Source of the DNA: Pelomonas cellulosilytica
GTDB lineage: Bacteria > Pseudomonadota > Gammaproteobacteria > Burkholderiales > Burkholderiaceae_C
Assembly (NCBI RefSeq): GCF_021353265.1
Contig: NZ_JAJTWU010000005.1
Coordinates: 248,001-312,000 of the forward strand
Reading direction: 5' to 3'
DNA length: 64,000 bases
In this document: piece by piece, positions 43,460 through 52,677 of the stretch
Layout of the letters: every line of letters starts with the position of its first letter
Position numbering within the stretch: the stretch's first letter is position 1
Position numbers and translations under genes: made by a program
The notes under the pieces: model-generated
Databases searched by the model: none
Told to the model about the DNA's origin: nothing
Seen by the model: the letters and a program-made list of their open reading frames with translations, nothing else

Positions 43460-44011
43460 TCAGCCGCGGGATGGGGTGCGTTCGGCAAACGACCGCGGCA
43501 CGGTCGGCTCTTCCTCCAGCGGTCGCAACGTCTTCTGCCACCAGCCGACGTCGCGCCAGGCGCCGTGCTTGAACCCGACATCACGGAAGACGCCCAGCGA
43601 CATGAAGCCCATCGCCTCGTGCAGGCCCACGCTGCCCGCATTGGGCAGCGCGATGCCGGCGAACGCCTGGCAGTAGCCCAGGTCGGCCAGCAAGGGCAGC
43701 AGCTCACCGTAGAGCGCGCGGCCCACGCCCTGGCCGCGGCGGTCCTCGCGGACGTAGACGGTCGTGTCCACCGACCACTGGTAGGCCGTGCGCTCGCGGT
43801 GCCTGCCGGCATAGGCATAACCGACGACACGGCCGACCGCGTCCTCGGCCACCAGCCACGGCAGCGCGGGGAGCGTCTTCACGACGCGGGCAGCCATCTC
43901 GGCCGCATCGGGTGGCTCGGTCTCGAAGGAGATGGCCGTGTGCTGGACGACGGGCGCGTAGATGGCCGCAAGCGCAGCGGCATCGGCAGGCGTGACGGTG
44001 CGGATCTTCAT
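43460..44011 (-). CDS. arsN: GNAT acetyltransferase, ArsN/phosphinothricin-acetyltransferase type
   Basis: ATG 44011 gives 183 residues: MKIRTVTPADAAALAAIYAP, VVQHTAISFETEPPDAAEMA, WLVAEDAVGRVVGYAYAG, and the acetyl-CoA loop EDRRGQGVGRALYGELL. This is the PPT/bar-like GNAT subgroup. It is the last gene of the arsenic operon, 31 nt after the aquaporin. ArsN1 enzymes of such operons acetylate arsinothricin (and phosphinothricin), so that is the most likely role; a general PPT acetyltransferase is possible. Confidence 0.82.
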   Translation of the reverse strand: MKIRTVTPADAAALAAIYAPVVQHTAISFETEPPDAAEMAARVVKTLPALPWLVAEDAVGRVVGYAYAGRHRERTAYQWSVDTTVYVREDRRGQGVGRALYGELLPLLADLGYCQAFAGIALPNAGSVGLHEAMGFMSLGVFRDVGFKHGAWRDVGWWQKTLRPLEEEPTVPRSFAERTPSRG

Positions 44012-44042
44012 GGCGCCAGCCTCGGGCCGACGACGGCGGCTG

Positions 44043-44705
44043 TCAACGGTCCATCGCGGCCTCGGGCGCCGCCAACCAGCGGGCGACGCCCGCGGCCAGC
44101 GCGGCGCCAAGCAGCTCCGCCACGACGAAGCCTGGCGCGCTGGCCGGCGCGATGCCGGCAAAGCTGTCGCTGACCATGCGGCCCACGACGGCGGCCGGGT
44201 TGGCGAAGGAGGTGGACGCGGTGAACCAATATGCCGCACCGATGTAGGCCGCGACCATGGCGGCCACGCGAGATTCGGGCGCGCGCAGGATGACCAGCAG
44301 CAGCCCGAACGTGGCGACCGCCTCGGCGATCCACTGCCCCGCGCCGCCGCGCACCTTCGTGGACCACTGCAGAAGGTTCATGTCGAACATTGCATGGGCC
44401 AGCCAGGCGCCCAGCACCGCGCCGCCCAGTTGCGCGGCGACATAGGGCAGCAGCGCCGCCGCCGGCAGCGCGCCGCGCCAGGCCATGACGGCACTGACGG
44501 CCGGGTTGAAGTGCGCCCCGCTGATGGGCCCGAACACCTCGATGAGCACGTAGAGCCCGCCGACCGTGGCCAGCGTGTTGGCCAGCAGCGCCAGCGCGAC
44601 GTTGCCGCCGGCCAGCCGCTCGGCCATGACGCCGGACCCGATGACGATGGCCAGCAGCCAGGCCGTGCCCAGCGCCTCCGCCGCCACGCGGCGCGCCAGC
44701 GCCAC
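44043..44705 (-). CDS. aqpS: MIP-family aquaglyceroporin of the arsenic operon (AqpS-like)
   Basis: Start GTG 44705 follows the arsC stop by 2 nt, giving 220 residues (MALARRVAAEALGTAWLLAI). Six membrane segments and two NPA boxes are seen (HFNPAVS, residues 67-69; SFANPAAVVGR, 169-171 with Arg176). The protein belongs to the MIP family; in ars operons such channels release arsenite downhill after arsenate reduction, replacing an ArsB pump. No ArsB or ACR3 gene is present here, which fits that role. Confidence 0.87.
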   Translation of the reverse strand: MALARRVAAEALGTAWLLAIVIGSGVMAERLAGGNVALALLANTLATVGGLYVLIEVFGPISGAHFNPAVSAVMAWRGALPAAALLPYVAAQLGGAVLGAWLAHAMFDMNLLQWSTKVRGGAGQWIAEAVATFGLLLVILRAPESRVAAMVAAYIGAAYWFTASTSFANPAAVVGRMVSDSFAGIAPASAPGFVVAELLGAALAAGVARWLAAPEAAMDR

Positions 44706-44707
44706 GC

Positions 44708-45208
44708 TCAGCTCTGCGCGATCTGCAACAGCGCCTGCTGCAGATGCGGCTTGTTCATGGTGGCCAGCGGCAGGTGCAGCAGCTGCAGCATGCGGTAGCC
44801 GATGGCCTGGCGGGTCAGCTCGAAGGCGCGGCGGCGGGCCTCGTCGCCCTTGACGAGGGACGGGTCGGGGTAGCCCCAGTGCACCTTCACCGGTGGCGCA
44901 CCGGCGCCGTGGAAGACCGGGCAGGCCTCGGCCGCGGCGCTGTCGCATACGGTGATGACGATGGACAGCGGCGGCGCCTCGGGCGTGGTGAATTCGTCCC
45001 AGCTCTTGCTGCGCACGCCGGCGGCATCCACCCCGGCCTGCTGCAGCGCCGCGAGCGCGAACGGGTTGACCTGCCCGCTGGGCGCGCTGCCGGCGCTGTG
45101 CGCGTGCACGTCGCGGCCGAGCTTGCGGGCCCAGTGATTGAGCATGCCTTCGGCCAGCACGCTGCGGGCCGAATTGTGGGTGCAGAGGATGAGGACGTGG
45201 GTGGTCAT
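44708..45208 (-). CDS. arsC: Thioredoxin-type arsenate reductase
   Basis: A 166-residue low-molecular-weight-phosphatase-type ArsC. The P-loop CTHNSARS has Cys9 and Arg15; Cys88 (ITVCDSA) and Cys96 (EACPVF) complete the redox relay of the thioredoxin-coupled class, and the general acid Asp is in WGYPDPS. It reduces As(V) to As(III) in the cytoplasm. It starts 3 nt after arsI and is followed directly by the aquaporin. Confidence 0.93.
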   Translation of the reverse strand: MTTHVLILCTHNSARSVLAEGMLNHWARKLGRDVHAHSAGSAPSGQVNPFALAALQQAGVDAAGVRSKSWDEFTTPEAPPLSIVITVCDSAAAEACPVFHGAGAPPVKVHWGYPDPSLVKGDEARRRAFELTRQAIGYRMLQLLHLPLATMNKPHLQQALLQIAQS

Positions 45209-45211
45209 GGG

Positions 45212-45688
45212 TCAGCAGCAGGAACCGGCGGCCTTGACGGCGATGGCCACCGGCTTGCCGCGCGGCGCGTCGCCCGGGCAGCAGGCGCCGGCCTGCGGGG
45301 CGGCCGCCTGCGTGGCGCTGAAGGTGGGGATGTCGGCCAGCGTCTGGAACTGCTCCCAGGCGATGCCCTGCGGGTCGGTCACCCAGTGCTTCTCGCTTTG
45401 GGCGTAGCAGCAGGTGGTGGCGCCTTCGTCGAGCAGGGCCGTGTCGGCCTCGCGGGCGCGGGCCTTCAGCTCGGCCAGCTCCTCGGGAGTGTCGACCTGG
45501 ATGCCGAGATGGTCCACCCCCGGCTTGCCGCCGCGCGAGGAGATGGCGAAGTTGATGCGCGGGTCGTCCAGCATCCACTTCGCATAGTCGGCCTCCAGGC
45601 GCGTGGGCGCGGCGCCGAAGAGCTTGGCGTAGAAGGCGACGCTCGCCTGCAGGTCGTCGACGTGGGCATGGACGTGGAAGCGCTTCAT
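45212..45688 (-). CDS. arsI: ArsI-type C-As bond lyase (CadI family)
   Basis: A 158-residue VOC dioxygenase of the ArsI/CadI group. By analogy with the Thermomonospora enzyme the iron ligands are His5, His60 and Glu112, and the arsenic site is the vicinal pair Cys93-Cys94 (GATTCCYAQSEKHW). The C-terminus has extra Cys (GACCPGD, GSCC). ArsI cleaves methyl or aryl groups from trivalent organoarsenicals such as MAs(III). It lies 10 nt after arsR in the operon. Confidence 0.9.
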   Translation of the reverse strand: MKRFHVHAHVDDLQASVAFYAKLFGAAPTRLEADYAKWMLDDPRINFAISSRGGKPGVDHLGIQVDTPEELAELKARAREADTALLDEGATTCCYAQSEKHWVTDPQGIAWEQFQTLADIPTFSATQAAAPQAGACCPGDAPRGKPVAIAVKAAGSCC

Positions 45689-45698
45689 GGGAACTCCT

Positions 45699-46028
45699 TC
45701 AGAGGCAGCAAGGGGTGGACGAGGACGCCGGCATGGCGCAGCCGGCGCCCTGGCAGCAGTTCTCGGTGAGATAGCCCAGCAGCGCGTTCATGCGCTCGTA
45801 GGCCGCGCGGTAAATGAGGTTGCGGCTGGACCGCTCCTGCGTCACGAGGCCGGCGTTGACCAGCTCCTTCAGGTGGAAGGAGAGCGTGTTGGCCGGAATA
45901 TCCAAGCCTTCGGCCATCGTGCCGGGCGTCAGGCCCGCCTCGCCGGTGACCACCAGCGCGCGGAACACCTTCAACCGCACCGGCTGGGCCAGCGCAGCGA
46001 GGGATTTGATGACGTCTTGTTCATCCAT
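45699..46028 (-). CDS. arsR: ArsR-family arsenic-responsive repressor
   Basis: A 109-residue winged-helix repressor (ALAQPVRLKVFRALVVTGEA, ANTLSFHLKELVNAGLVTQE). The classic CxC in helix 3 is absent; instead the C-terminus has Cys91, Cys92 and Cys97, plus Cys107 and Cys108, a layout like the Acidithiobacillus-type ArsR that uses C-terminal Cys to bind As(III). It heads the operon arsR-arsI-arsC-aqpS-arsN and is expected to repress it. Confidence 0.92.
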   Translation of the reverse strand: MDEQDVIKSLAALAQPVRLKVFRALVVTGEAGLTPGTMAEGLDIPANTLSFHLKELVNAGLVTQERSSRNLIYRAAYERMNALLGYLTENCCQGAGCAMPASSSTPCCL

Positions 46029-46096: not shown

Positions 46097-46909
46097 TCAG
46101 CGGCGGCGGGCGCGCGCAGCCGCGGGCACCAGCAGCAGGCCCGCCAGCCACAGCAGCACGACCTGCGGCTCCGGCACGGCTGCCGGTGTTACGGCTGCGT
46201 CGAAAAGCACCAGCGAAGCAATGCGGCCACTGGCGAATTCCTGCTGGGCGTTGGAGGCGACGTTGTCGGCAAAGAACGTCAGCAGGTGCTGCGGGTTGTT
46301 GGCATTGGCCAGCGTGAAGGTGTCGGTCAGCGTGGAAATCTCGAGCTGACCGTCCAGGTAGGCCGTCACTCGTTGACGGCCCGCTTCCGGAGCGACGCTG
46401 AGCAGCACGTCATGGAAGCCAGGTGTGGTGAAGCTCGTATTGCCAGACACCAGCACGTTGTCGGTGGCATAGATCTGCACCGTCTGCAGCTTCTGCTCGG
46501 GCGAGACATAGAAGCCGGCGTCGGACTGGCGCGCCTCGGTGTCGACGATGCGGCGCCAGCCGCTGCCCGTTTGCGCCGTCGTGGCGAACTCGAAGGTCAG
46601 CGCCACCGAGTAGCTGGCGTAGTCCGGCAGCAACGAGCTGGCATCCAGCGCAAGGCCGGCCTGGCGAAGCGCATCGCTGCCGTCGCCGGACCAGCGGTAG
46701 ACCGTGCGGCTGACGCCGTGGACGACCGCCGTCTCGAAGCCGTTCTGCGACAGCGGGTCGATGGCCATCAGTGCGGGCGCACCGGCCTGGTCGGCGGCCA
46801 GCGTGCCGTTGAAACCATAACTGGCCCGCAGCGAGGCGGCCTGGGCGGCAACCGAAACGACGAGCCCCACGGCGAGCGCGGCAACCCATGAAATGACGCG
46901 ACCAACCAT
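46097..46909 (-). CDS. PEP-CTERM sorting-domain protein with LamG-like fold
   Basis: ATG 46909 gives 270 residues. The signal peptide (MVGRVISWVAALAVGLVVSV) ends AQA. The body is a beta-sandwich of the concanavalin/LamG kind (LRASYGFNGTLAADQAGAPA, SVALTFEFATTAQTGSGWRR, YLDGQLEISTLTDTFTL). The C-terminus has the sorting tag VPEPQVVLLWLAGLLLVPAA followed by Arg residues. Such proteins are processed by an exosortase and displayed on the surface with exopolysaccharide. No exosortase is in the window. The gene diverges from the deacetylase-caspase lipoprotein gene. Confidence 0.9.
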   Translation of the reverse strand: MVGRVISWVAALAVGLVVSVAAQAASLRASYGFNGTLAADQAGAPALMAIDPLSQNGFETAVVHGVSRTVYRWSGDGSDALRQAGLALDASSLLPDYASYSVALTFEFATTAQTGSGWRRIVDTEARQSDAGFYVSPEQKLQTVQIYATDNVLVSGNTSFTTPGFHDVLLSVAPEAGRQRVTAYLDGQLEISTLTDTFTLANANNPQHLLTFFADNVASNAQQEFASGRIASLVLFDAAVTPAAVPEPQVVLLWLAGLLLVPAAARARRR

Positions 46910-47038
46910 GACGCTCGACTCCGGAATGAACGAAGCGGCGGAGTGTGGACAGTGCCGCGCCGGGGTGTCAATGGCGCAACTTGGGGGGACGGCCTCGCCG
47001 CACAATCCCGCCCGCCTTCCCTGACACCCCGCCCACCC

Positions 47039-49786
47039 GTGAAGCATTTACCCGGACCCGCCCTGCTGCTGACCGCCACCCTCGTGCTGACCGCCTGCCA
47101 GCGCCACGCCGACGTGCCCGCCGCGCTGCCGGCCGCCTCTGCCGCGCAGGACGCCGGCGCCACCGCGCAGCTGCGCACCGAGGCCGACGCGCTGTTGGCC
47201 CTGCACCGCCAGATCGTCGTGCTGATGGACGGCGAGGCCGCGCTGCCGCCGGCCCAGCGTCGCGAGGTGCAGGCACTGGGCCAGCAGCTGTTCCACGAGC
47301 TGCTGCAGCGCCAGCAGGCGCTGGCCGATGCGGCGCTGAAGCCCGAGGCGCTGGCGGCCACGACGGCGCTGATGACGCGCATCGAGAGCGAGCCCGGCTG
47401 GTTCGACGCCGACCGCCTCGCGTTCAAGGAAGTGCTGGGCCAGTTGGCCACGGGCCTGAAGACGGCGCAGACGCTGGACGGCATCAAGCTCGCGCGCCGC
47501 GCGCAGGACGACCTGGACACGCTGGCCGAGGTGGAGAAGGCCTATGAGCAGGAACTCAAGGAGGCGTTCGGCGGCTTTGCCAGGCGCGGCATCGAGCTCA
47601 AGCGCGAGAAGTGGAGCGACTACGTCGCCAAGCTGAAGACGCTGCACACCCGCGAGGCAGTGATGAAGCAGCACGGCGCGCAGCTGCCCGCGGCCACCGA
47701 CCTGGCGCCCGAGGTGCCGGCATCAGCCGCCTCGGGCGCCATGCGCGGCGTGGCGGCCAAGGATCGCGAGGTCTTCGGCGACAAGCTGCCGCCCAAGACC
47801 GTGCTGCTGACCTTCGACGACGGCCCGCACGCCCGCTACACCGACGAGATCCTCGACATCCTGAGGCGCTATGGCGCGCCGGCCGTGTTCTTCGAGCTGG
47901 GCCAGAACCTCGGCAAGGTCGGCGCCGACGGCAAGCCGCAGCCCGGCAACGGCACGGCCGTGGCGAAGCGCGTGCTGGCGGCCGGCCACCAAATCGCCAA
48001 CCACAGCTTCACGCACGGGCTGATGAGCAAGTTCGAGCTCGTCAAGGTCAAGGAAGAAGCCGCTAACACGGAGGCGCTGCTGGACGCGGCGGGTCGCAAT
48101 GGCGACGCGTTGTTTCGCTTTCCGTACGGCGCGCGCAACGACGGCGCATTGAGCACCATAGAGGCGCTGAAGCTGCGCTCGATGATGTGGAACGTGGACT
48201 CGCTGGACTGGAGCGACCCCATCCCCAAGAGCATCGCCGCCCGCGTGCTGGCCGACCTGGACAAGCAGGGCCGCGGCATCGTGCTGTTCCACGACATCCA
48301 CGCCCGCACCGTGCAGGCGCTGCCGCTGGTGCTGGACCAGCTGGCCGCCGACGGCTGGCGCTTCGCGAGCTGGCAGAACGGCCAGTTCGTCGTCAGCACA
48401 GACAAGGCCACCGCCGCGCCGCCGCCTGCGCCCGGCGAGCTGTACCGTGAGAGCCATGCGCTGGTCATCGGGATCAACGGCTACACGGCCTGGCCGAAGC
48501 TCTCGCACGCGGTGCGCGACGCGCAGGCGATGCGTGAGGCCCTCGTCACGCGCTTCGGCTTCAAGACCGACAACGTGACGCTGCTGACCGACGGAGATGC
48601 GACGCGCGCCAACATCCTGAAGGCCCTCAACGACCGCTTCGGCGACGCCAGGCGCGTCAAACGCGACGACCGCGTGTTCGTGTTCTTTGCCGGCCACGGC
48701 AGCACGCGCCGGCTGCCCAGTGGCCGCGAGGTGGGCTACATCGTGCCGGTGGATGCCGGGCTCAACGATCTGCAGGCCGACGCCATCGCGATGCCGCAAC
48801 TGCAGGAGGTGGCCGAGGCCATAACCGCCAAGCATGCGCTGTTCGTCATCGACGCGTGTTACTCCGGCCTGGGCCTGACGCGCGGCGGCAGCGCAGCGGC
48901 AGACAGCAACTTCGCCCGCACGAATGCGCGCCGCATCGGCCGCCAGATGATGACCGCCGGCGGCGCCGACCAGCAGGTGGCCGACGACGGCCCGGGCGGC
49001 CATTCGGTCTTCACGTGGACGCTGCTGCAGGCGCTCAACGGCAAGGCGGATCTGAACGGCGACGGCCTCATCACCGCGACCGAACTGGCCGCCTATGTGG
49101 CGCCTGCCGTGTCGGCCATCGCCCACCAGACGCCCGCCTTCGGCAGCCTGCCGGGCAGCGAGGGCGGCGAGTTCGTCTTCGAGTTGCCGACCGCGCAGGA
49201 GCCGGGCCTCAGCGGCGCCGTCGCGCAGCTGGACGACAAAGCCAGCCAGCTCGCCGCCAAGCTCGACGAAGCCAGCACAGCAGGCCGCCAGGCCGCCCCC
49301 GCCGCGAGCGGCGCGGCCAGCGCGGTTCAGGTGACGATCAAGGGTCTGGATGGCAAGGACCAGGCCCTCGCCGCGACGACCGCTCGCGTCGACCCTGGCG
49401 CCCGCGTCGCCGCCCAACGCGCCAACGACCGCGGCCTGCAGCTCTACCGCGAGCGCCGCTACGACGAGGCCGAGGCCGCGTTCAAGGAGGCGCTGCAGCT
49501 GCAGCCCAAGTTCGCGCTGGCGGCCAACAACCTCGGCTTCGTCCTCTACCGCCGCGGCAAGTTCGCCGACGCGGCGGGCTGGTTCGAGAAGGCCGTGGAG
49601 ATGGACGCGAGCCGGTCGCTCGCCTGGCTCAACCTCGGCGACGCCCGCCTGCAGGCCGGCGACGACGCCAAGGCCATCGCGGCGTACAAGACCTTCCTGG
49701 AGCTGGCGCCCAAGCACGCGCGGGCGGCGGAAGTGCAGGGGTGGGTGGTGAATCCATCGGAGGCGACGAGGCCGAAGGCATTGTGA
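47039..49786 (+). CDS. Lipoprotein fusing polysaccharide deacetylase, caspase-like protease and TPRs
   Basis: The GTG at 47039 gives 915 residues with an ideal lipobox (VLTAC, Cys20), so it is a membrane-anchored periplasmic or outer-membrane lipoprotein. Residues 40-215 are coiled helix. Residues 250-450 are a NodB-type polysaccharide deacetylase: LLTFDDGPH (Asp260, Asp261) and NHSFTH (His322, His326). Residues 470-715 are a caspase-like (C14) domain: ALVIGINGYTAWPKLSHAVR, catalytic His553 (FFAGHGS) and Cys607 (FVIDACYSG), plus an EF-hand-like loop DLNGDGLITATE (671-682). Residues 790-900 hold three TPRs. Both enzymes keep their catalytic residues. I know of no characterised protein with this order. 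Confidence 0.9.
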   Translation: MKHLPGPALLLTATLVLTACQRHADVPAALPAASAAQDAGATAQLRTEADALLALHRQIVVLMDGEAALPPAQRREVQALGQQLFHELLQRQQALADAALKPEALAATTALMTRIESEPGWFDADRLAFKEVLGQLATGLKTAQTLDGIKLARRAQDDLDTLAEVEKAYEQELKEAFGGFARRGIELKREKWSDYVAKLKTLHTREAVMKQHGAQLPAATDLAPEVPASAASGAMRGVAAKDREVFGDKLPPKTVLLTFDDGPHARYTDEILDILRRYGAPAVFFELGQNLGKVGADGKPQPGNGTAVAKRVLAAGHQIANHSFTHGLMSKFELVKVKEEAANTEALLDAAGRNGDALFRFPYGARNDGALSTIEALKLRSMMWNVDSLDWSDPIPKSIAARVLADLDKQGRGIVLFHDIHARTVQALPLVLDQLAADGWRFASWQNGQFVVSTDKATAAPPPAPGELYRESHALVIGINGYTAWPKLSHAVRDAQAMREALVTRFGFKTDNVTLLTDGDATRANILKALNDRFGDARRVKRDDRVFVFFAGHGSTRRLPSGREVGYIVPVDAGLNDLQADAIAMPQLQEVAEAITAKHALFVIDACYSGLGLTRGGSAAADSNFARTNARRIGRQMMTAGGADQQVADDGPGGHSVFTWTLLQALNGKADLNGDGLITATELAAYVAPAVSAIAHQTPAFGSLPGSEGGEFVFELPTAQEPGLSGAVAQLDDKASQLAAKLDEASTAGRQAAPAASGAASAVQVTIKGLDGKDQALAATTARVDPGARVAAQRANDRGLQLYRERRYDEAEAAFKEALQLQPKFALAANNLGFVLYRRGKFADAAGWFEKAVEMDASRSLAWLNLGDARLQAGDDAKAIAAYKTFLELAPKHARAAEVQGWVVNPSEATRPKAL

Positions 49787-50082: not shown

Positions 50083-50435
50083 CCTGTGTTCCACTCGGCC
50101 CCGAAGTCCCGTCTGCGTTGATCCTTCTTCGGAGATCTCGATGACCCCATCCGCCTCGTCGCCAGCGGTCACGCCACGCGACGTGCTCCGTGACCGGTTG
50201 CTCGCCACCGTGAACCTGCTCAAGCAGCGGCGCGCGTCCGAGATCGATGAGGCCCACATCGACGACTACGTGGCTTTGCACTGGCTGGAATGGCAGGGCG
50301 GCACGCTGCGCCTGACTACCACGGGCGAAAACGTGTGCAAGCACCTCACGGCCCTGCTGAACCGCACCGGCGAGGGCGCCCTGAGTCGAGTGCAGCCGTA
50401 GTGGTAGGCCGGCGGCCGGGCGCCTGTGTTCCACT
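50083..50435 (+). repeat. 13-bp direct repeat upstream of the small ORF and of the helicase
   Basis: CCTGTGTTCCACT occurs at 50083-50095 and 50423-50435, followed in both cases by a CCGGCC or CGGCC block. One copy lies 46 nt before the small winged-helix-like ORF, the other 8 nt before the helicase start. A shared regulatory site or a duplicated leader is possible. Confidence 0.45.
50141..50401 (+). CDS. Small winged-helix-like protein
   Basis: An 86-residue ORF with a GGAG site 8 nt before ATG 50141. The sequence LRDRLLATVNLLKQRRASEI, then DDYVALHWLEWQGGTLRLTTTGENVCKHL has the helix-helix-wing order of a small winged helix-turn-helix. I cannot name a family. It precedes the helicase by 41 nt and shares a 13-bp upstream repeat with it, so it may be its regulator or partner. 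Confidence 0.6.
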   Translation: MTPSASSPAVTPRDVLRDRLLATVNLLKQRRASEIDEAHIDDYVALHWLEWQGGTLRLTTTGENVCKHLTALLNRTGEGALSRVQP

Positions 50436-50442
50436 TCCGGCC

Positions 50443-52677
50443 GTGAATCACGAAGTTCCCCAAGCCGCCAAGCCGGCCAAGGCGCCGCCGCCTGCCTTTC
50501 CCCTCCCCCAACCCCGCCACGCGTCGCGCCTGCCGGACAGCCTGACGCCTGAAGACTGGGCCCGCATCCGCCAGGCGGCGTATGCGCTGCCGCAGACGCT
50601 GACGCCGTCGGACCTCGACGACGGCACGGACGACGCGCTGGAGCGGCTGGGCGCCATCCAGGTCTCCAAGGCGGCCGGCGGCGCGCGGCCGAGCCGATGG
50701 ATCCTGCCGGCGCACATCCCCGTCGCGCTGGCCCAGCTGGACGCCACACCGCTGGCCAACACGCTGCGCGCGCTGATGCAGCAGCGGCTGCACCAGCTCG
50801 AATCGCTCGGGCTGCGCCGCGAAGTCCTGGTGTTCACGCGGCTGTGCGTGCATCCCATCACGCTGGCGCATGAGGGCTGGCGCATCGACCTGTCGCACCG
50901 CGTGCCGGTGCCCGAGGCGCCGGTGTGGGCCTTCTTCCGCGATGGCGACCAGGCTGCACTACGCCACACATTGGGCCAGGCGCCCGAGTACTCCTACACC
51001 GCCGAGCTAGCACTGCACCTGAACCACCTCGTCGCCCGCAGCGAGGCGCTGGCCGACAGCACGCAACTCGCGTCGCTGCTACCGCGGCTGCAGGCCGAGT
51101 GCGGCGTGCCCATGCCCTTCGACGACCTGAAGGCCGCGCTCACCCGCGCCCAGGATCGTTGGGAGCAGCAGGTGGAGGAACAGAGCACGATGGCCAGCCT
51201 GGGCCGCGAGCTGGCTTTCCAGGGCTACCCGGACAGCTTCGACACGGCGCGCAAGCTGGGCCGCAAGGTCACGCTCTACCTGGGCCCGCCCAACAGCGGC
51301 AAGACGTATGCGGCCTTCGAGCGGCTGGCGCAGGCGCTGGACGGCGCCTACCTCGCTCCGCTGCGGCTGCTGGCGCTGGAGGGACGTGACCGGCTCGTGG
51401 GCCGCGGCGTGCCCTGCTCGCTGCTGACCGGCGAAGAGAGCGTGCCGGCCGACAACGCCCGCGTCGTGTCCAGCACCATCGAGATGGTCAACACGCGCGA
51501 CGTGGTGGACGTGGCCGTGGTCGACGAAGCGCAGATGATCTTCGACGACTCGCGCGGCTGGGCGTGGACGCAGGCCATTGTCGGCGTGCCAGCGCGCGAG
51601 CTGGTCATCATCGCGTCGGCCTACGCGGCCCCGGCCATCGAACGGCTGCTGCAGCTGTGCGGCGAGAAGCCCGAGAAGCGCTTCTTTGAACGCAAACAGC
51701 AGGTGCAGCTGATGCCCGCGCCGGTGCCGATGAACCACCTGCACGCGGGCGACGCGGTAGTGGCCTTCAGCCGACGCGACGTGCTGATGCTGCGCGACCA
51801 GATCGCGCAGGACGGCCACGCCGTCAGCGTCATCTACGGTGCACTGCCGCCGGAGGTGCGCCGCCGCGAGGCTGAACGCTTTGCCGTCGGCGCGAGCGAC
51901 GTACTGGTGGCTACCGACGCCATCGGCATGGGCCTGAACCTGCCGATCCGCCGCGTGCTGTTCTCGACGCTGACCAAGTTCGACGGCGTGGGTGACCGTG
52001 AACTCAGCGTCAGTGAGGTGCACCAGATTGCCGGTCGCGCGGGCCGCTACGGCATGCACGACGAGGGCTTCGTCAGCGTGCTGAAGGAGGCCGAGGCGGA
52101 CGCGATGAAGACGCTGCGCAGCCTGCTGCCCAAAGAGCCGCGGGCACCGCGTGACTTCAAGGCGCCGGTGGCGCCGAACTGGCGGCACGTCGACACGATC
52201 TCGCGGCGCCTAGGCGTGAACAAGCTCTACGCGGTGCTGAGCATCTTCATGCAGCAGCTGCGACTGGACGATGCCCACTTTGCGGTGGCGGAACTGGAGC
52301 AGATGCTGGAGCTGGCCGAGATGCTGGACCGCAACGCCGGCACGCTGCCGCTGAACGAGCGCTTCAAGTATGCGCAGGCACCGGTGGATTCGCGCCTCCC
52401 GACGCTGGTGGACCAGTTCGGCAACTGGGTGCTGAATCACGCGCGCACCGGCAACGCCGGCGAGCCGCACTTCCTCGACGAGTACGACCAGCATGGCCGC
52501 CTGGACCGCATGGAGCAGGCGCTGCGCATATGCACGCTGTGGCTGTGGCTGGACCTGCGCTTCCCGGGCGTGTACGGCCATGTCGAGGAGGTCATCGACC
52601 TGCGCGGCCGACTGAATGACGGCATCGAGCGGCAGTTGAAGGGGAAGAAGGCGTTGTGGCAGAGGCGGGGACGTTAG
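50443..52677 (+). CDS. SUV3-like superfamily 2 RNA helicase
   Basis: GTG 50443 (GTG 50401 possible) gives 744 residues. The N-terminal 260 residues are helical. Walker A is YLGPPNSGKTY (about 281-288), followed by APLRLLALEGRDRL (Ia), DEAQ box VVDEAQMIF (about 361) and motif VI HQIAGRAGRYG (about 528-537). This GPPNSGKT/DEAQ/QIAGRAGRxG set is the SUV3 signature, known from the mitochondrial degradosome, and differs from DEAD-box proteins. The C-terminal helical part (NKLYAVLSIFMQQLRLDDAH) is SUV3-like. It probably unwinds RNA for decay; no exonuclease is adjacent. Confidence 0.87.
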   Translation: MNHEVPQAAKPAKAPPPAFPLPQPRHASRLPDSLTPEDWARIRQAAYALPQTLTPSDLDDGTDDALERLGAIQVSKAAGGARPSRWILPAHIPVALAQLDATPLANTLRALMQQRLHQLESLGLRREVLVFTRLCVHPITLAHEGWRIDLSHRVPVPEAPVWAFFRDGDQAALRHTLGQAPEYSYTAELALHLNHLVARSEALADSTQLASLLPRLQAECGVPMPFDDLKAALTRAQDRWEQQVEEQSTMASLGRELAFQGYPDSFDTARKLGRKVTLYLGPPNSGKTYAAFERLAQALDGAYLAPLRLLALEGRDRLVGRGVPCSLLTGEESVPADNARVVSSTIEMVNTRDVVDVAVVDEAQMIFDDSRGWAWTQAIVGVPARELVIIASAYAAPAIERLLQLCGEKPEKRFFERKQQVQLMPAPVPMNHLHAGDAVVAFSRRDVLMLRDQIAQDGHAVSVIYGALPPEVRRREAERFAVGASDVLVATDAIGMGLNLPIRRVLFSTLTKFDGVGDRELSVSEVHQIAGRAGRYGMHDEGFVSVLKEAEADAMKTLRSLLPKEPRAPRDFKAPVAPNWRHVDTISRRLGVNKLYAVLSIFMQQLRLDDAHFAVAELEQMLELAEMLDRNAGTLPLNERFKYAQAPVDSRLPTLVDQFGNWVLNHARTGNAGEPHFLDEYDQHGRLDRMEQALRICTLWLWLDLRFPGVYGHVEEVIDLRGRLNDGIERQLKGKKALWQRRGR

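Follow-up and report, generated by a model that had tools for sequence, protein, structure and literature searches.

What might a single protein do that joins an export signal, a polysaccharide deacetylase, a caspase-like protease and tetratricopeptide repeats (TPRs), and is such a fusion real? The question is raised by one gene in the 64,000-nucleotide stretch of Pelomonas cellulosilytica DNA analyzed here (the window). A first-pass annotation made from the sequence had proposed a surface-anchored enzyme that cuts a protein and deacetylates a glycan at the envelope, possibly in a calcium-dependent fashion, with the divergent PEP-CTERM gene next to it as a source of substrate or matrix material. 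Translation of the gene (Table 1) gives 915 residues and a stop codon from a GTG start, and every residue and feature named in that annotation was found in place in this one frame: Cys20 (LTAC), Asp260, Asp261, His322, His326, His553 (FAGHG), Cys607 (DACYSG), the loop at 671-682 and the TPRs. An alternative in-frame GTG lies further upstream, at 46943; the presence of the lipobox favors the downstream start, and no clear ribosome-binding site was seen by eye ahead of the gene. Pfam searches identified Polysacc_deac_1 (E=4.4e-25, residues 249-380), Peptidase_C14 (E=8.8e-23, residues 473-692) and TPR_2 (E=8.1e-17, three stretches), and the same domain order is found in the relative at locus L091. 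Residues 36-247 match no Pfam family above cut-off and no PDB fold at E<=0.001, and are mostly helical in the predicted model (pLDDT 77.8). The full-length predicted model is poor, with pLDDT <50 over residues 605-786 (the C-terminal half of the caspase), and the fold search, which matched PdaC, SpPgdA, metacaspases and TPRs, has to be read with this low-confidence model and the large rmsd outside the TPRs in mind.

Table 1. Features of the locus, in positions of the window
Feature	Position	Strand	Description or basis
Whole gene	47039..49786	+	915-aa predicted lipoprotein, Xanthomonas-type metacaspase (helical domain, NodB/CE4, caspase, TPR)
Signal peptide, lipobox LTAC, predicted lipidated Cys20	47039..47098	+	sequence and alignment
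N-terminal helical domain and low-confidence linker, residues 36-247	47144..47779	+	predicted structure
NodB/CE4 polysaccharide deacetylase domain, residues 249-446	47783..48376	+	Pfam, NCBIfam, fold search, alignment
Caspase (Peptidase_C14) domain, residues 468-717; dyad H553/C607, predicted S1-pocket Asp494 and Asp605	48440..49189	+	
EF-hand-like loop DLNGDGLITATE, residues 671-682, within caspase domain	49049..49084	+	
TPR region, residues 790-900	49406..49738	+	Pfam, fold search
PEP-CTERM-like protein gene, divergent neighbor, judged outside the system	46097..46909	-	

An artifact, in which a frameshift or assembly error joins separate genes, is ruled out by intact relatives in many genomes; 62 distinct sequences, the window's among them, retain all of the catalytic residues of both enzymes. 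The full-length protein is present in 10 of 19 other genomes of the same genus, at 89-92% identity, and 16 of 60 relatives' genomes (its own included) match at E<=1e-20. At the family level 35 of 399 genomes, again including its own, match at E<=1e-60, representing 17 of the 141 genera sampled. All but one of these match over at least 684 residues including the caspase and TPRs (34 genomes), the 35th (G186) matching in its N-terminal and NodB parts only. Matches become rare further out: 3 of 369 genomes at the class level (E<=1e-80; its own and two from a family designated f37) and 4 of 299 at the phylum level (its own, two from f37 and the broken G974), with 14 of 119 genomes matching within f37. 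A scan of 84,980 species' genomes, which relies on short exact peptides and detects close relatives only, returned 31 loci, many of them from Roseateles, Pelomonas, Mitsuaria, Rhizobacter or Rubrivivax. The distribution of the protein family is patchy, and environmental Roseateles and Mitsuaria strains are among the carriers, Roseateles depolymerans DSM 11813 and Mitsuaria chitosanitabida being two of them. Phage records gave 28 matches; the 10 matches listed are confined to the deacetylase region and the sequence directly before it, and none of the 10 reaches 80% coverage.

Several copies are broken or partial. Rhizobacter sp. OV335 (L047/L062) carries a TAG, G181 a TGA, and G974 is in two frames; these stand outside the 62 aligned rows. 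The copy in G891 (L088), cut short by a TAA within the TPR part, is counted among the 62. The family search gave 36 places, of which six without a locus, G186 among them, were left out of the alignments. The G974 gene (L128:57-2553, minus strand), a divergent relative close to the end of a contig, has NodB in one frame and caspase in another, which could reflect splitting of the gene, a frameshift or faulty assembly. The G186 protein (L127:4914-6482, minus strand) is a stand-alone helical domain plus NodB in a 523-aa frame, without caspase or TPRs. This one case would fit a history in which a helical-NodB part came first and gained the caspase-TPR half afterwards.

The first-pass annotation also raised the prospect of homologues with the same domain order and a known role. 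The first half of this holds, the order having been published in 2012, and the second does not, no role being established in the available text of that paper. Asplund-Samuelsson et al. (PMC3501461) describe there 17 proteins of this order, in some of which the TPRs are absent, as 'Xanthomonas-type metacaspases' from Xanthomonas, Xylella, Stenotrophomonas and two Acidobacteria, and report that trmE adjoins the gene in the three gammaproteobacterial genera, with yidC and rnpA upstream. Our literature search for the fusion, carried out mostly without full texts, found a description only in that paper; the word 'deacetylase' does not occur in the accessible part of PMC4933709. Identity between the window protein and the 14 sequences from f37, which we infer to be Xanthomonadaceae, is 49-51% (in 13 cases across some 830 residues or more, in one across 761). 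This similarity along nearly the whole chain places the window protein in the same family, and on alignment it is a member of the Xanthomonas-type metacaspases. By Pfam, the relative in the f37 genome G600 (L091) is flanked by genes for YidC and TrmE/MnmE, with DnaA nearby, and the same clusters of genes recur in G708 (L092).

Are both enzymes likely to be active? The alignment of 62 distinct rows consists of 48 sequences aligned over >700 residues, among them the window's, plus 14 f37 sequences, one of which (L088) ends early. The metal triad (Asp-His-His), catalytic Asp and His motifs of CE4/NodB deacetylases are present, and D260, D261, H322, H326, R360, D390 and H418 are invariant in 62/62 rows, as are P362, Y363, W384, D387, W391 and L416. 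From the CE4/NodB family motif we take D261, H322 and H326 to be the metal ligands and D260 to be catalytic. The Peptidase_C14 domain likewise has the H/C dyad of metacaspases, with H553 and C607 kept in all 62 rows along with D494, D605, R615, R632, R635 and the loop positions D671, N673, D675 and E682. On average the rows are 70% identical to the window protein across the NodB domain, 77% across the caspase domain and 72% across the TPRs; the N-terminal domain (54%) and the linker at 717-785 (49%) are less similar. By this measure the strongest constraint is on both enzymes and the TPRs. The CE4 deacetylase and the metacaspase-type protease both look to be in working order.

The N-terminus of the relatives bears on where these enzymes would act. 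A cysteine occupies the Cys20 column in 38 of 48 rows, 36 of which match the lipobox pattern and 2 of which keep the Cys in a variant box; the remaining 10 have a hydrophobic N-terminal stretch, as judged by eye, and no lipobox Cys. A lipobox is visible in 14/14 f37 rows. The tree separates two groups with support 100 each, the window's clade (the 38 rows that keep the Cys) and the f37 rows (14). The ten rows without a lipobox group together in the best tree, with support 100 when set against the f37 rows alone and only 76 against all 52 other rows, and at the latter value we set aside a single clade or origin for them, on which none of the probabilities given below depends. G186 and G974, which have NodB and no joined caspase, start with apparently ordinary signal peptides (by eye). 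By the rule known from E. coli, Gln after a lipidated Cys favors the outer membrane, as the Gln after Cys20 would here. The window protein is predicted from its anchor signal to be membrane-anchored and to face the periplasm. Of the proposed surface anchoring, the membrane anchor is retained; placement at the surface is not, since the hydrophobic stretch that replaces the lipobox in ten relatives fits a periplasmic face at least as well. An anchored protein carrying two enzymes, as first suggested, is supported by the anchor signal together with two apparently intact active sites.

The cysteine content of the protein is also lower than that of its surroundings. After residue 45, in a mature region of about 865 residues, exactly one cysteine, C607, is found in 61 of 62 rows, the exception being the broken copy L088; the 1.1% Cys of the predicted neighbor genes would give about 9-10 over the same length. 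The only cysteine retained in the mature part appears to be the catalytic one. Exported proteins are often cysteine-poor, so the single cysteine supports location more than mechanism. A cysteine comparison with other caspases, for which frames were obtained in only 8 of 23 loci, several of them cysteine-poor, was not counted as evidence.

The possible calcium dependence was suggested by the EF-hand-like loop. EF-hand models fall below the Pfam cut-off (PF13202, 14.9 bits vs 25.9), and the four loop positions are, as noted, invariant. A similar loop is present in two of four other bacterial caspase-family proteins examined, from Deinococcus aetherius and Rhizobium lusitanum, the four coming from a set of 30 plasmid records that match a caspase. 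Among 21 other caspase loci, a crude motif scan recovered a frame, possibly wrong, in 16 and the loop in none. EF-hand motifs are described in seven archaeal orthocaspases in the accessible text of PMC6426788. The loops in two of the four proteins weaken the idea of a special feature of this protein, and the loop is better described from these comparisons as an accessory that recurs in certain caspases, is not peculiar to the window protein, and may bind calcium and stabilize the caspase fold. A frame in Pseudoalteromonas piscicida (L123:3947-5713, plus strand), where the record is unannotated, encodes a caspase domain 44.5% identical to the window's, with no deacetylase match and no EF-hand-like loop.

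Substrate predictions follow from the nearest solved relatives. The best PDB alignments of the caspase domain are with metacaspases, and the invariant D494 and D605 align with metacaspase aspartates in those entries. In T. brucei MC2, Asp95 and Asp211 accommodate basic residues, according to the available part of PMC6426788, and we take D494 and D605 as their counterparts. An acidic S1 pocket of this kind leads us to predict that the protease cuts after Arg or Lys, not Asp. The best solved relatives of residues 245-444 include SpPgdA and PdaC, from which we infer that the deacetylase acts on an N-acetylglucosamine glycan, most likely peptidoglycan; the window protein does not reach the NCBIfam cut-offs for PgdA, PdaB or NodB.

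The reading we prefer, with a probability of roughly one half, is a periplasm-facing deacetylase of a glycan, probably peptidoglycan, whose activity would be coupled to that of an Arg/Lys-specific protease. The lipobox, or the hydrophobic stretch, would anchor the protein in the membrane facing the periplasm, and the CE4 domain would strip acetyl groups from its glycan. The TPRs would bring in a partner, and the protease would cut after Arg or Lys in the protein itself and/or in that partner. Cleavage could then couple deacetylation to an envelope signal, for example by freeing or switching the deacetylase, with the loop possibly holding calcium to steady the caspase fold. Such coupling would not be obligatory for the deacetylase, since the helical-NodB part occurs without the caspase. 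A bolder version, in which a calcium or TPR-partner signal triggers the Arg/Lys cut and the released or activated deacetylase changes the cell wall, so that the caspase-family protein is a self-contained periplasmic switch, is speculative and we consider it doubtful. If it were true, the 'caspase' of Xanthomonas cell death would be a cell-wall remodeler, not a cytoplasmic killer.

The most serious competitor is that the two enzymes act independently and have only their anchor in common, the caspase maturing or degrading other periplasmic proteins without controlling the deacetylase. The G186 protein indicates that the deacetylase can stand alone. Against this, both active sites and their order are kept in all 62 rows, which suggests, short of proof, that the link between the enzymes matters, and we regard independent action as possible though on the unlikely side. 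Less probable again is a role in programmed cell death, in which a caspase-3-like executioner protease would kill the cell under metabolic stress; this has been put forward for the Xanthomonas homologue. The window protein, a relative, has the same domain order, and the available text of PMC3501461 connects the family with cell death and caspase-like activity in X. campestris pv. glycines. The same text notes a mismatch between the 55 kDa activity and the protein of about 100 kDa, though processing is suggested, and a 2014 Xanthomonas cell-death paper (PMC4006831) contains neither 'metacaspase' nor 'deacetylase' in its main text as available. Caspase-3 substrates are cut after Asp, whereas the predicted acidic S1 pocket here favors Arg or Lys. 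Predicted export and anchoring, a single catalytic cysteine and Arg/Lys cleavage would make the protein a poor fit to a cytoplasmic caspase-3-like killer and point to control at the envelope. The text consulted (PMC3501461) gave the family its name in 2012 and connected it with programmed cell death in bacteria, leaving its role open and calling for functional work; the question can now be tested, and the Roseateles and Mitsuaria carriers are potential test organisms beyond plant pathogens.

The surroundings of the gene bear on two further explanations. No conserved operon partner was seen, neighbors differing among the Pelomonas-like, Mitsuaria-like, Rhizobacter-like and f37 groups; genes were called by a simple codon-position G+C score, and single neighbor calls may be wrong. 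In the window, an arsenic cluster at 43460-46028 (minus strand) comprises, apparently in a row, an ArsR-type regulator and an ArsI/CadI-type enzyme, both above an NCBIfam cut-off, an ArsC-like reductase below cut-off, an aquaporin-family (MIP) protein and a GNAT acetyltransferase. On the other side, at 50290-52677 (plus strand), lies a Suv3-type helicase (DEXQc_Suv3, E=3.8e-49; SUV3_C), a type best known from mitochondria. Of 34 stretches compared, 11 (the window among them) have this helicase downstream of the gene. Caspases beside bacterial gasdermins have been linked to anti-phage defense, and the PADLOC 'caspase' model matches the window protein (E=4.8e-21). This match is limited to positions 3-144 of the 453 in the profile, the protein bears an export signal, and the neighbors identified by Pfam and NCBIfam are the arsenic genes, the Suv3-like helicase and an epimerase, with two small ones unmatched; a role as an anti-phage protease is very improbable.

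The proposed partnership with the PEP-CTERM neighbor did not survive comparison across genomes. The neighboring gene starts 129 bp upstream, with its ATG at 46909, and is itself a weak PEP-CTERM match (Pfam 13.8 bits vs 20.7; NCBIfam matches below cut-off, searched from 46915). No homologue of it was detected at any of the 31 named loci by tblastn at E<=1e-5 in flanks of up to 8 kb, shorter at some loci, a search in which a very diverged one could be missed. The same search recovered the ArsC gene at 4 of 31 loci and the helicase at 10 of 31, and was thus able to find neighbors. The genome that holds the window has two exosortase matches, and exosortase (TIGR02602, E<=1e-5) occurs in 37 of 55 gene-bearing genomes overall. 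It does not track the gene: within the genus it is present in 11/11 gene-bearing and 8/9 gene-lacking genomes, the ninth being 83% complete, and in f37 in 0/14 gene-bearing genomes. With no sign of association in either the loci or the exosortase counts, processing of PEP-CTERM proteins or of an exopolysaccharide matrix together with this neighbor is scarcely credible.

How does the protein compare with known systems? Like the Xanthomonas-type metacaspases, it has PF01522, a metacaspase domain with a Cys-His dyad, one to three TPRs and a mass of about 100 kDa, and the yidC/trmE location of the published genes, which was reported for Xanthomonas, Xylella and Stenotrophomonas but not given as a defining trait, recurs in the f37 relatives. 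The window gene differs in lacking yidC and trmE beside it, its neighbors being the PEP-CTERM gene, the ars genes and the Suv3-like helicase, and its relatives are Roseateles-like Burkholderiales, a lineage absent from the hosts given in the available text of PMC3501461. With the CE4 enzymes PgdA and PdaC (PDB 2c1g and 6h8l) it shares the CE4 motifs, present and invariant, while only its deacetylase part matches them and the NCBIfam PgdA cut-off is missed. With metacaspases and orthocaspases (Peptidase C14; PDB 9n3d, 4f6o and 7qp0) it shares the H/C dyad and two S1 aspartates, and is set apart from them by its export and anchor signal, the CE4 fusion and the EF-hand-like loop in the C-terminal part of the caspase, the loop being shared with two of the four other bacterial caspase-family proteins compared above. 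The architecture itself was already in print, and the accessible text of PMC3501461 is without discussion of the lipobox, the single cysteine or the N-terminal domain; to that account the present analysis would add the anchor types, the single cysteine, the invariant S1 aspartates and an occurrence in 17 of 141 genera.
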